Shown here: piece after piece, positions 5,045-13,226 of the stretch
How the letters are laid out: every line of letters begins with the position of its first letter
Position numbering within the stretch: the stretch's first letter is position 1
Source of the DNA: an uncultured Chloroflexaceae bacterium
GTDB taxonomy: Bacteria > Chloroflexota > Chloroflexia > Chloroflexales > Chloroflexaceae
Length of the DNA stretch: 14,196 nt
Direction: 5' to 3'
Assembly: GCA_937141995.1 (NCBI GenBank)
Contig: CAKZQX010000339.1
Coordinates: 1 to 14,196, forward strand
Translations under genes and position numbers: made by a program
Notes under the pieces: model-generated
Told to the model about the DNA's origin: nothing
Seen by the model: the letters and a program-made list of their open reading frames with translations, nothing else
Database searches by the model: none

Positions 5045-5115
5045 TGCCGGGTTGTGTAATGGCAGCACAGCGGACTTTGAATCCGTTAGTCCAGGTTCGA
5101 GTCCTGGCCCGGCAG
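5045..5115 (+). tRNA. tRNA-Gln (anticodon TTG)
   Basis: A full cloverleaf can be drawn. The acceptor stem is TGCCGGG (5045-5051) with CCCGGCA (5108-5114) and discriminator G5115. The D stem is GTGT/GCAC (5054-5057, 5065-5068). The anticodon stem is GCGGA/TCCGT with loop CTTTGAA, so the anticodon TTG is at 5077-5079. The T arm is CCAGG-TTCGAGT-CCTGG (5091-5107). The 3' CCA is not encoded and must be added. The U1-A72 pair and G73 discriminator fit glutamine identity. It stands alone with its own promoter and terminator. Confidence 0.95.
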
Positions 5116-8756: not shown

Positions 8757-8771
8757 CTCTTTGCATAAAAA

Positions 8772-8861
8772 GCACCGAAGGATACCCAGAGGAACTCGCC
8801 TACCGTTGCTGCTGTCAGGCCCTGGCGGAGTTCAGCGAGTATCTGCCATCCCCCGGTGCGC
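8772..8861 (-). ncRNA. ffs: Signal recognition particle RNA, small bacterial (4.5S-like) type
   Basis: This is the RNA scaffold that binds Ffh to target nascent membrane proteins to FtsY/SecYEG. On the minus strand the 90-base RNA folds into the single long helix of the small type. GCACCG pairs with CGGTGC at the ends, then GGAT/ATCC, CAGA/TCTG, ACTCGC/GCGAGT and CCG/CGG. The apical domain is CCAGG on one side and AGCAGCAACGG on the other, the conserved Ffh-binding internal loop. The tip reads GCC-UGAC-AGC, so the tetraloop is UGAC, of the URRC type, instead of the usual GNRA (GGAA). The closing pair would be C/A. TTTTTATG follows the last helix base. The 5' end fits the start predicted from the promoter. 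The exact mature ends are uncertain by a few bases. Confidence 0.87.
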
Positions 8862-8866
8862 AGCAC

Positions 8867-8895: not shown

Positions 8896-9023
8896 CCCGT
8901 TATGCCCGATTAAGTGTTGGAATAGTGTTAGCGTTCAGTATTCACCCCACAGAGAACAAGTAGTACCGGATGGGGATCAGTCGCAGCGTTGCTTCGTTCT
9001 GCGTTCTCCGGTTATTTAGTTCT

Positions 9024-9084
9024 TTCCACATATTTATTAATAGAAAACCGTAATGATAGTAGGGGATGTGGAAGGTGTGGAGAG
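9024..9084 (-). other. Basal unwinding module: tandem DnaA boxes, G/C tract, DnaA-trios and AT-rich element
   Basis: Reading the minus strand, CTCTCCACA (9076-9084) and CCTTCCACA (9067-9075) abut each other, followed by TCCCC (9062-9066). Next is TACTATCATTA, which on the plus strand reads TAA TGA TAG TAG (9051-9062). Then comes an AT-rich stretch with TTAATAAATA (9024-9049). This is the order described for the DnaA-trio basal unwinding system of Bacillus subtilis: boxes, GC tract, 5'-TAG-type trios on the complementary strand, unwinding element. DnaA would load from the boxes onto one strand and melt the AT-rich side. Confidence 0.75.
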
Positions 9085-9222
9085 AGATGCGTATCCGGCG
9101 TGCAGGGGCGGCGAAAAGGGTGGGTACAGGTTGTGGAGCATTATCCCCATTATACACCGGCGAGGGGAATGTCGGCACATCTTGCTTCGTGTACACATGC
9201 CGTCCACGCATTGTGCGCACGC

Positions 9223-9272
9223 TTATCCACAATTTCTTATAGTTATCCACATATTGCTGCTGGTTATCCACA
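9223..9272 (+). promoter_or_regulatory. Three perfect, helically phased DnaA boxes
   Basis: TTATCCACA occurs three times with start-to-start spacing of 20 and 21 bases, close to two turns of the helix, so bound DnaA would sit on one face. All point the same way. Upstream, two 8-bp palindromes (GTGTACAC at 9189-9196 and GTGCGCAC at 9213-9220) lie just before the first box. Confidence 0.92.
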
Positions 9273-9359
9273 TTTATGTGGAGATTAAACGGTGGCGGTT
9301 GATGGGGTGATGCGAGGTGTGTGAGCCGGTGGGCCGGAGAATAGTTCATTATGGCTAGA

Positions 9360-9396
9360 GTAAAGGGGCATGACTCATCTGGTCATGCCCCTTTAC
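9360..9396 (-). terminator. Perfect 15-bp hairpin, likely terminator of the DUF151 gene at the origin border
   Basis: GTAAAGGGGCATGAC (9360-9374) and GTCATGCCCCTTTAC (9382-9396) form a perfect stem with a 7-base loop, 22 bases beyond the DUF151 stop. After the stem the minus strand reads TCTAG with no clear T-run, so termination is likely but not classic. It would stop transcripts from entering oriC. Confidence 0.6.
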
Positions 9397-9417: not shown

Positions 9418-9966
9418 TTACTCTTTGCGACTACCTTCCTCCGGCTCATCGAGGTCGAGCTTATTAATAAAATCTCTAAAGATCGAGAGGTTCTCTTCAT
9501 TCATCTCTGGTTCAGCCGCTTCAGACTCTTCCGTTGCCAGGGGCTCTTGTGCGGTTTGCTCTTCCTCATCAAAAAAGACACCCGCCTGATCGAGCACATG
9601 GGTTTCAACATAGATGGGAACCTCAATCCGTACCGCAAGCGCGATAGCATCGCTTGGCCGCGCATCCACCTCGATAGTTTGACCGTTTTGCTCGATAACA
9701 ATGCGGGCAAAGAAGGTGTTATCGTGAATATCATTAACAAAGATATGGCTAACAGTACCACCCATCTCGCCGATCAATGCCTTGAGCAGATCATGGGTCA
9801 GCGGTCGTTGGGGCTCATGGCCCTGGATCGCCATTGCTATCGCATCGGCCTCGAATGGCCCGATCCATATCGGAAGGTATCGTCTGCTATCAGTCTCGCG
9901 CAGCACAACAACCCGGTGCTGCGTAAGCAGACTCACGCGAATACTGTCAATTGTTACACGTATCAT
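9418..9966 (-). CDS. DUF151 / bifunctional nuclease family protein
   Basis: This 182-residue protein has the DUF151 (BFN) domain at residues 1-133: '[13 protein letters not shown]', '[19 protein letters not shown]' (31-49), '[10 protein letters not shown]' (55-64), and the signature '[13 protein letters not shown]' (101-113) with 'PIYV' following. Archetypes are reported as nucleases in plants and bacteria, but the catalytic role of the bacterial family is not settled. An acidic linker (133-156, many E) leads to a short C-terminal helix '[16 protein letters not shown]' (160-175), which resembles the UVR-like or '-FR-x-F-L-' tail often attached to this domain. The start at 9966 has GAAAGG upstream. 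It is transcribed toward oriC, with a strong hairpin after its stop. The neighbour on the right is divergent, across 299 bases. Cytoplasmic; substrate unknown. Confidence 0.88.
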
Positions 9967-11777: not shown

Positions 11778-11822
11778 GCTTGCTCCGCCGGTTCGTAGTA
11801 GAACATTCAGTGTTTCTATGAT

Positions 11823-11894
11823 CCTGTCCTGCGGTTGACTCTCGGCAGCACGCTGGTCACTAGCGCTGACCGTAGCCCGATGCATCAGGACAGG
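11823..11894. repeat. Distant inverted repeat, possible structured 3' or leader RNA before parB
   Basis: CCTGTCCTG (11823-11831) and CAGGACAGG (11886-11894) are exact reverse complements 54 bases apart. Inside is GGTCA-CTAGCGC-TGACC. After the outer arm comes GACTGGTTTTAGAC, with a run of only four T. It could be a branched terminator of the peptidase gene. No known riboswitch or RNA family was recognised. Confidence 0.4.
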
Positions 11895-11917
11895 GACTGG
11901 TTTTAGACAGTTCACCG

Positions 11918-11926
11918 TGTTACAAT
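11918..11926 (+). promoter_or_regulatory. Candidate extended -10 promoter for parB
   Basis: TGTTACAAT matches the TG-n-TATAAT extended -10 pattern with one change. No good -35 is present. Transcription start near 11933 would leave a leader of about 78 bases before the parB ATG. Confidence 0.4.
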
Positions 11927-12010
11927 TGATTCTGTATGCGGCAACGTGTGTGAACCGGGAAGTAACGGGTTGCGCGCGTTACTCCTGCAATCCAGTGTCA
12001 AGGAAGCTGT

Positions 12011-13141
12011 ATGAGTTTCAATAACGACCAGCGTGATTTATCCGGTGCATCCATCTCCGGCGAGGGCGCTGCCGCGCAGATCATCCGCGAAATTGATGTC
12101 ACGGCGATTCGGCCCAACCGGAGCCAGCCCCGGGATTATTTTGATGAGCAGGCGCTTGCAGAGTTAGTGGCATCAATCCGGGAGCATGGGTTGCTCCAGC
12201 CGCTGATCGTCACCGAACATGCGCATGGAGGCTATGAGTTAGTCGCCGGTGAGCGGCGCTGGCGTGCTGCACAGCGGGCGGGTCTGGCGCGCGTGCCGGT
12301 GCTGGTCAAAGATGTGACGCCCCTGCAACTGCTCGAACTGGCGCTGGTTGAGAATGTGCAACGGGCTGACCTGAATCCGCTGGAGGAGGGACGCGCATAT
12401 CAGACGCTCAAGGATGAGTTTGGGCTGAAGGATGAAGAGATTGCCCGGCGTGTCGGCAAGAGTCGTGTCACGGTGGTCAATGCGCGGCGTCTGATGCGGC
12501 TGATCCCGGCAGCACAGCAGAGCCTGATCGCCGGTACCATCACCGCCGGGCATGGGCGGGCGCTGTTACGGCTGGAGCAACCAGAGCAGCAGGCGGCGGC
12601 CCTGGCGCTGCTGGTGCGCGCTGAACTGAGCGTGCGCGAGATTGAGCGTGTAACCGAGTTTGTCCTCGACCCACGGCTTGCGTCACCGGTGCAAGCGGCA
12701 CTGCTGGCCGGTAGTATCACCGTTGGTCATGCGCAGGCACTGCTCTGTCTGGAGGATACAACGTGTCAGACGGCCCTGTTGGGTACGGTGATTACCCATG
12801 GCCTGGCGGTGCGCGAAACGGAACGCCTGGGTACGATGGTTGCCACGGGTACGCCGGTGGCGCAGGCCTACGAGCAGGTCCGTGGACATGCGGCGAGTAG
12901 TTCCCGGGTACTGGATCAGCCGGGTCAGCCATCCACGCAACACGATCGAGAACCGTCCGATCCGGTATCTGCGCAGCGCATGCCTGCTCCCGAAGATGCG
13001 GCTGTCCAGCGTATGTTTGAGGAGGTTCTGGGGACACCGGTGCAGCTTACCCGGACTGGTACGGCAATCAAGCTGACGATCATGCTCTACAGCGAAGAGC
13101 AGATGCAGGGGTTGTATGACCTGATGGCGAGTGCGGTTTAA
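12011..13141 (+). CDS. parB: Chromosome-partitioning protein ParB (CTP-dependent DNA clamp) with internal duplication
   Basis: ParB loads at parS near the origin, binds CTP, slides and brings in ParA/SMC for chromosome segregation. The 376-residue frame starts at an ATG after AAGGAAG. The N-terminal CTPase domain has 'IRPNRSQPR' (33-41), 'SIREHGLLQPLIV' (55-67), the nucleotide motif 'GERRWRAAQ' (80-88) and 'ENVQRADLNPLEEGRAY' (114-130). The helix-turn-helix is 'EEIARRVGKSRVTVVNARRL' (142-161). The following module, 'GTITAGHGRALLRLE ... SVREIERV' (163-214), occurs a second time at 222-273 ('GSITVGHAQALLCLE ... AVRETERL') with a constant offset of 59 residues and no gap. I count 23 identities in 52 positions. 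Normal ParB has one copy. A disordered Pro/Ser/Gln linker (290-330) precedes a C-terminal dimer region (331-376). No parA lies beside it. Two parS-like sites follow the stop. Confidence 0.95.
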   Translation: MSFNNDQRDLSGASISGEGAAAQIIREIDVTAIRPNRSQPRDYFDEQALAELVASIREHGLLQPLIVTEHAHGGYELVAGERRWRAAQRAGLARVPVLVKDVTPLQLLELALVENVQRADLNPLEEGRAYQTLKDEFGLKDEEIARRVGKSRVTVVNARRLMRLIPAAQQSLIAGTITAGHGRALLRLEQPEQQAAALALLVRAELSVREIERVTEFVLDPRLASPVQAALLAGSITVGHAQALLCLEDTTCQTALLGTVITHGLAVRETERLGTMVATGTPVAQAYEQVRGHAASSSRVLDQPGQPSTQHDREPSDPVSAQRMPAPEDAAVQRMFEEVLGTPVQLTRTGTAIKLTIMLYSEEQMQGLYDLMASAV

Positions 13142-13157
13142 CGAACAATTTTGGCGC

Positions 13158-13175
13158 TGTGTAAAACGTGAAACA
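13158..13175 (+). promoter_or_regulatory. parS: parS-like ParB-binding site, copy 1
   Basis: TGTGTAAAACGTGAAACA. Its last 16 bases match the widely conserved parS sequence TGTTTCACGTGAAACA at 13 of 16 positions. The right half-site ACGTGAAACA is perfect; the left half has AAA instead of TTC. GCTGT/ACAGC flanks give it extra dyad symmetry. It lies 17 bases after the parB stop. Binding is inferred. Confidence 0.6.
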
Positions 13176-13208: not shown

Positions 13209-13226
13209 TGTGTAAAACGTGAAACA
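13209..13226 (+). promoter_or_regulatory. parS: parS-like ParB-binding site, copy 2
   Basis: The same 18 bases as copy 1, exactly repeated 51 bases further on in the same orientation. The flanks differ (ATGT/ACAT arms here), so conservation stops at the element. This points to a site rather than a larger duplication. Confidence 0.6.

Follow-up and report, generated by a model that had tools for sequence, protein, structure and literature searches.

Bacterial replication origins are commonly looked for beside dnaA; the oriC of Escherichia coli is distant from it. In Bacillus subtilis, distal DnaA boxes are described in PMC6669920 as required and are thought to act through a loop, and a distal box is functional at many distances. 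The rules for a basal unwinding system (BUS), as given in PMC8287927, comprise one box with at most 2 mismatches, a partner with at most 4, a spacer of at most 16 bp, and three consecutive trios with A in the middle position, (.A.){3,}. According to PMC10721633, B. subtilis DnaA accepts C about as well as A in the middle of the first trio and G or T less well, a preference exerted via an amine contact to Asn187; this residue is named there as a base-capture residue together with Ile190, Ile193, Arg202 and Glu228. For Thermotoga maritima, helical phasing between the boxes and the unwinding element is reported to matter (PMC10316083).

The locus analysed here belongs to a Chloroflexales MAG and occupies positions 9012-9272 of the window, the whole stretch of 14,196 nucleotides that was studied. 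It is very probably the chromosomal replication origin of this genome, and would be opened via array-delivered DnaA at a triplet module. Observed are the elements themselves, their conservation, the gap length and the triplet frame in relatives, a skew coincidence in two Chloroflexus-type chromosomes, and five residues of this genome's DnaA that are identical to those of B. subtilis.

Architecture and surroundings of the locus

Read from the sequence, the region 9012-9272 contains a triple DnaA-box array, a weaker box and a module facing the opposite way (Table 1). The three array boxes (at 9223, 9243 and 9264) are exact copies of TTATCCACA with start-to-start spacings of 20 and 21 bp, and TTATCCCCA at 9141-9149 matches in eight of nine positions, both as the initial annotation had stated. 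The window has 7 box matches with at most 1 mismatch, against 2.06 (sd 1.41) expected, a number reached in 0 of 200 shuffles, and at least three exact boxes within 555 nt arose in 0 of 20000 Markov-1 simulations. A box cluster beyond chance is thus found in the window, and it is also found in the relatives.

Table 1. Features of the probable origin and its neighbourhood, in window positions
Feature	Position	Strand	Details
SRP RNA gene, other side of the proposed origin	8766..8862	-	Rfam RF00169, 48.2 bits
AT-rich stretch, presumed duplex-unwinding element	9012..9047	.	83% AT; unwinding presumed
Five triplets CCG-TAA-TGA-TAG-TAG	9048..9062	+	box strand: CTA-CTA-TCA-TTA-CGG
Short spacer	9063..9066	-	GGGA on + strand, TCCC on box strand
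Inner DnaA box of the opening module, CCTTCCACA	9067..9075	-	3 mismatches; abuts outer box
Outer DnaA box of the opening module, CTCTCCACA	9076..9084	-	2 mismatches
Gap between triple array and opening module	9085..9222	.	138 bp
Fourth, weaker DnaA box, TTATCCCCA	9141..9149	+	8-of-9
DnaA box 3 of the triple array, TTATCCACA	9223..9231	+	exact; 20 bp from box 2
DnaA box 2 of the triple array, TTATCCACA	9243..9251	+	exact; 21 bp from box 1
DnaA box 1 of the triple array, TTATCCACA	9264..9272	+	exact
Inverted repeat after the BFN gene, probable terminator between BFN and origin	9361..9395	.	sequence reading; putative function
DUF151 / bifunctional nuclease-domain gene (BFN), marker of the origin's position	9418..9966	-	Pfam PF02577, 148.7 bits
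parB, origin-side partition locus	12011..13141	+	Pfam PF17762, PF02195

The second module that had been annotated, facing the other way with two abutting boxes, a G-rich tract and an AT-rich stretch, is indeed present at 9012-9084. Its boxes have 2 and 3 mismatches and a spacer of 4, which falls within the BUS box rule, as do all 48 of the 48 called modules of the order (genomes with a module score of at least 1.5 entered this comparison). The run TAA-TGA-TAG-TAG, initially read as trios, lies at 9051-9062, preceded by CCG at 9048-9050, but the middle base of TGA is G, so that only two consecutive middle-A triplets adjoin the box and not at least three 3'-NAN-5' trios. TGA also breaks the looser rule 3'-R(A/C)Y-5', which the other four triplets follow. 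Judged by its letters, the module is BUS/DnaA-trio-like, yet non-canonical. The wider spacer and box options of the published program would give matches elsewhere in the region, and shuffles give them too. The AT-rich stretch adjoining the boxes is a predicted unwinding element on the basis of its composition, and includes a box-like CTTTCCACA at 9022-9030.

Rfam and Pfam searches also bear out the annotated neighbours, the SRP RNA gene on one side and the DUF151 gene on the other, and neither dnaA nor dnaN is in view, as had been noted: their matches lie on other contigs (C867 and C598) of the same genome, G000, of which the window is contig C339. This genome has 5.4 Mb in 1122 contigs, a completeness of 86%, and is placed in the same family as the Chloroflexus-type genomes. 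The SRP RNA gene adjoins the proposed origin in 4 of the 10 relatives searched as well. Other features were recorded in passing. There is a tRNA gene at 5045-5115, a few kb from the proposed origin, and tRNA genes occur in the fetched stretch of 5 of the 10 relatives searched. A T-box leader (RF00230) lies at 1748-2012 of L151, near the presumed Chloroflexus origin, upstream of a gene that by eye resembles the tryptophan-synthase beta chain. A CRISPR-like array with repeats of ~37 nt, also seen by eye, occupies about 2847-3486 of L031 and starts ~330 nt downstream of the dnaA of the window's genome.

Conservation in Chloroflexales and the triplet frame

Using TTNTCCACA three times at exact 20/21 spacing, with at most 1 mismatch in all, as the pattern, we identified the array once per genome in 54 of 82 order genomes, and in none of the 82 with the reversed control. 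It lies just 3' of the same BFN gene in 53 of these 54; in G057, array and BFN are on different contigs. The exact array was not found in 28 of the 82, including Herpetosiphon, genus g34 and fragmented MAGs. Herpetosiphon and g34 have boxes after BFN at a different spacing, and a box pair follows BFN in 4 of the 8 g34 genomes searched. Seventy-three of the 82 genomes have a BFN match and were used to count boxes (at most 1 mismatch) in the following 700 nt: 69 of the 73 have at least 3, a number reached by 0 of 365 letter shuffles (the shuffles here and below preserve letter counts and not dinucleotides). The exceptions are G038 and G057, with no box, and G069 and G077, with one. G038 (L053 / L073) is peculiar, as it has a BFN homologue, no box within 700 nt and a reversed local skew; either its origin has moved or its bin is mixed.

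The length of the gap is another shared characteristic. Among the 53 of the 73 genomes with an array at 3 mismatches or fewer, the gap is 136-141 bp in 39, and exactly 140 in 24, compared with 12 of 1060 shuffles. The module finder searched 0-330 bp beyond the array and rewards CTACTA; a triplet-blind finder gives a gap of 136-141 bp in 37 of 53 genomes vs 14 of 1060 shuffles. Gaps in the remaining 14 genomes are 151-249 bp long; helical phasing among these was considered and dropped, about half being in phase by eye. For the 24 genomes with 140 bp, the mean identity between genera is 0.36 in the gap and 0.71 in the array, and between families f1 and f4 it is 0.325 and 0.67, respectively. Because the gap sequence is little conserved between genera, its length appears to be kept more than its sequence, apart from weak boxes. 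These occur at few offsets within the gap, one of them beside that of the 9141 box: a counterpart with at most 2 mismatches at the neighbouring offset of 124 +/-1 has a genus-weighted frequency of 0.39 (37 relatives, 15 genera), the shuffled 99th percentile being 0.067.

The triplets were analysed in a frame anchored on the boxes and the first CTA, with triplet 1 uninformative and triplet 2 onward free. In triplets 3-5 of the order, 5.15 of 6 positions follow Y-N-R in frame vs 2.11 and 1.91 in the other frames, and 41 of 53 relatives have at least 5 of 6 such positions in frame vs 0 and 0. The 25 modules recognised in other families of the phylum, of which 15 come from one family, f13, have 5.20 of 6 in frame vs 2.80 and 1.16, with at least 5 of 6 in 21 of 25 vs 1 and 0. 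Counted on the trio strand, A or C occupies the middle of triplets 2-5 in 172 of 212 cases in the order (a count without a formal null) and in 91 of 100 in the other families. The A/C shares for triplets 2-5 are 0.95, 0.66, 0.69 and 0.94 in the order, weighted by genus, and 1.00, 0.75, 0.62 and 0.62 in the other families, weighted by family. In 32 of 53 relatives, four or all five of the triplets conform to 3'-R(A/C)Y-5'. The DnaA of the window's genome is identical to that of B. subtilis at Asn187, Ile190, Ile193, Arg202 and Glu228 (alignment with manual position count), that is, at five of the five base-capture residues. The loose published BUS rule, applied in our own coding over 600 nt, matched 60 of 73 regions vs a mean of 20.9 of 73 after shuffling; given such frequent matches in shuffled regions, it proves little on its own.

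The layout repeated in these relatives hints at a mode of DNA opening, in which the steps of DnaA binding, looping, base capture and melting are those that we infer. DnaA would load on the phased triple array, whose spacings of 20/21 bp are about two helical turns each, and on the weak box at 9141. The DnaA bound at these boxes would then reach the weak pair at 9067-9084 across the near-constant gap, through looping or along a continuous nucleoprotein. From this pair an ATP-DnaA oligomer could extend over GGGA onto the + strand triplets 3'-GAT-GAT-AGT-AAT-GCC-5', where it would capture the purine and the amino base (A or C) from most triplets, and it may finally melt the adjoining AT-rich stretch.

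Alternatively, the locus could be an origin in which the triplets are irrelevant and melting proceeds via the AT-rich stretch and the triple array, with E. coli-like recruitment as the model for triplet-independent melting. Runs of at least three consecutive middle-A trios occur in 7 of the 53 order relatives and in 10 of the 25 modules from other families. They are missing here and in 46 of the 53, and even under the looser rule three consecutive 3'-R(A/C)Y-5' triplets from the first occur in only 17 of 53, which favours this alternative. The triplet frame is nevertheless in phase with the boxes in the relatives and in the other families, and the middle bases lean towards A/C, the pair accepted by B. 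subtilis DnaA according to PMC10721633. We regard irrelevant triplets as unlikely. The initial annotation had supposed the same opening mechanism as in Bacillus; the comparison supports only a working like that of the DnaA-trio system, as three consecutive middle-A trios are absent from this module and from those of 46 of 53 relatives.

Chromosome polarity, dnaA and the partition locus

Two Chloroflexus-type chromosomes have a clear skew: G006, which we take to be C. aurantiacus J-10-fl, and G005, presumably C. aggregans. With 40 stretches of 20 kb in G006, the two-arc fits are best with the origin at 1.977 and 1.957 Mb, the array being at 1.967 Mb, and fits from 1.93 to 2.07 Mb are nearly as good. 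With 20 stretches in G005, the fitted origin is at 2.579 Mb on the sampling grid and the array at 2.628 Mb, within the next sampled stretch. Sampling in both was denser near the array than elsewhere. The antipodal contrast at the array was reached by 0 of 5000 one-sided permutations in G006 and 0 of 5000 in G005, and at dnaA this contrast is negative in both. Since dnaA is near the record start (about 1.4-1.5 kb in both records), it lies 1.97 Mb (G006) and 2.06 Mb (G005) from the array round the circle, and it is within 0.19 and 0.37 Mb, respectively, of the best-fitting terminus. Whole-chromosome skew failed as a general test in three further chromosomes, which are not counted as support: 118 of 5000 permutations in G042, with the best fit elsewhere at 4.01 Mb; 1445 of 5000 in G064; and 1257 of 5000 two-sided permutations in G181, from twenty 5-kb samples only. 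A dif-like pattern, considered as a terminus locator, gave only 3-mismatch matches and was dropped. Of 29 loci, 25 have at least 2.5 kb on both sides; within 5 kb, the BFN side has the higher local skew in 21 of these (20 of 24 when one genome counted twice is corrected).

These results bear on the possibility that the true origin is the box cluster before dnaA, the BFN-side array being a secondary DnaA-binding site. The dnaA upstream region of the window's genome does have 5 boxes within 1 mismatch, and the published maps agree with such an origin: the C. aurantiacus genome paper places oriC at twelve o'clock of its map, with dnaA as Caur_0001 (PMC3150298), and the Herpetosiphon map is oriented to dnaA and counted from the replication origin (PMC3368417). 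The negative antipodal contrast at dnaA in G006 and G005, and its position near the fitted terminus, speak against it, and boxes at dnaA vary from 0 to 4 per locus in 10 relatives, a weak comparison, as the upstream reach is short and some boxes are elsewhere in the locus. An origin at dnaA is thus very improbable. The published C. aurantiacus oriC, at the map top with dnaA first, is probably wrong; provided that G006 is that record, the origin would lie near 1.967 Mb. The probable origin of this model phototroph would thereby shift about 2 Mb from its genome-paper position.

Partition genes were found near the array. Exact parS sites occur once each in G005, G006 and G008, 2.3-2.4 kb from the array. 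The order in G006 is array, BFN, M23 peptidase, parA and parB, with parS at the M23/parA junction, and parA and parB are on the same side of the array in several relatives. Unlike relatives such as L151, the window gave no parA match between the M23 gene and parB (11778-12010); parB starts 234 nt after the M23 gene. No parS within 2 mismatches was found in the window. Two identical imperfect parS-like 16-mers, with 3 mismatches, are located right after parB at 13160-13175 and 13211-13226, and one exact parS was found in the window's genome on another contig, C460.

The cluster might also be a site of DnaA titration or reactivation, like datA and DARS, or regulate neighbouring genes, with no origin function. 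Three Chloroflexus-type genomes do have a second DnaA-box pair, with boxes 19 or 20 bp apart, at a distance of 6.5-7.5 kb from the array (L151 about 3162; G005:C1:2620162; G008:C1:1895753), so nearby clusters of boxes may serve other uses; this pair is perhaps regulatory. Such a site would not be expected with a triplet-bearing AT-rich module, a coincident skew switch and dnaA adjacency in other families, and a terminator-like repeat at the end of BFN separates this gene from the cluster; there is little chance that either accounts for the locus. Several relatives have parAB near the array, which could point to an integrated plasmid or secondary replicon as the source of the origin. This is highly improbable, as 53 of 82 order genomes have a single array beside BFN, two single-contig chromosomes have theirs where the skew fit places the origin, and chromosomal parAB near oriC is usual.

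The initial annotation, which had proposed a chromosomal origin away from dnaA, is thus supported by conservation on the BFN side, skew in two chromosomes with dnaA ~2 Mb off, local skew and parS/parAB nearby. Of the checks that it suggested, comparison with relatives found boxes and triplets kept and the array beside BFN in 53 of 82 order genomes, and the skew switch coincided with the array in the chromosomes of two relatives with clear skew, three other chromosomes being uninformative and the genome itself being in 1122 contigs.

Distribution in Chloroflexota and comparison with known origins

The array is present in 114 of 400 genomes of the phylum, once each, with 0 in the reversed control; by hand count these are 31 of 40 genomes inside the order and 83 of 360 outside. 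From the 83 outside genomes, 40 loci, hand-picked for family spread, were fetched. A recognisable module, above the 99th percentile of shuffles, is present in 25 of the 40, and no module was found at this threshold in 15. The gap is 136-141 bp in only 5 of the 40 loci and 206-259 bp in 19 loci of f13 and f45, so the near-constant length is claimed for Chloroflexales only. A dnaA match starts 1.4-1.6 kb from the array in 10 of 40 loci (families f83, f68, f27, f37 and f18), and none was found within the fetched 3 kb in 30 of 40, including all 19 of f13 and f45. In G181 and G385, both single-contig, the distance from array to dnaA is 0.93 and about 0.62 Mb, respectively. Families differ in whether the array and dnaA are neighbours; either the layout would have moved or dnaA would have left. 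Dehalococcoides is a genus of the same phylum. Its Ori-Finder box, TTATCGAAA (PMC2275245), differs, and such lineages would not show the array searched here.

It seems reasonably, if not strongly, likely that much of Chloroflexota shares one ancestral origin blueprint: an exactly spaced triple DnaA-box array facing a tandem-box opening module across a lineage-specific gap, with triplets following an amino rule (3'-purine, A or C, pyrimidine-5'). This blueprint would have parted from dnaA as a unit, the Chloroflexus dnaA now being near the terminus, and maps that start at dnaA would misplace oriC. If so, natural C in trio middles could serve as evolutionary evidence for the base-capture model from B. 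subtilis. The layout could serve as a signature by which the origin is recognised in sequences from much of the phylum. It also offers dozens of natural variants with which to test how DnaA reads a single-stranded motif, and it illustrates clearly that an initiator gene can lie with its origin in some families and away from it in others with the cis-layout kept.

Titles and abstracts of the open-access literature yielded no Chloroflexota origin with trios and no relocated C. aurantiacus origin; a DoriC entry may exist. Among the BUS predictions for 2070 species (Pelliciari et al. 2021), the main text of PMC8287927 does not contain 'Chloroflex', and Chloroflexus may be in its supplements. The module of the window agrees with the box rule of those predictions and not with their trio rule, and, as three consecutive trios were looked for and two found, we file it as a BUS variant and not as a strict member. 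With the rule of three middle A used for prediction, the module goes unrecognised in 46 of 53 relatives; this may account for some of the origins that were reported to lack trios.

The locus resembles the BUS of B. subtilis oriC (incC), with its DnaA-boxes 6/7 and DnaA-trios, in the tandem co-oriented boxes, the short spacer, the AT-rich DNA beyond, triplets that begin 3'-GAT-GAT-5', and the five identical base-capture residues of DnaA. It differs in not being beside dnaA/dnaN, in having only two consecutive middle-A trios, and in the exactly spaced triple array that faces the opening boxes across a near-constant gap. Origins of the E. coli type are likewise apart from dnaA, whereas here relatives in the phylum have the same array beside dnaA. 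The T. maritima oriC, with five boxes and three TAG repeats, is similar in the TAG triplets of its unwinding element and in its flanking boxes; its box consensus differs. No triple array with convergent tandem boxes is described for it in the consulted part of PMC10316083. By analogy, the locus would suit an origin of two modules, with a distal array passing DnaA on to a BUS-like opening module; this follows what has been proposed for B. subtilis (PMC6669920) and is close to T. maritima.
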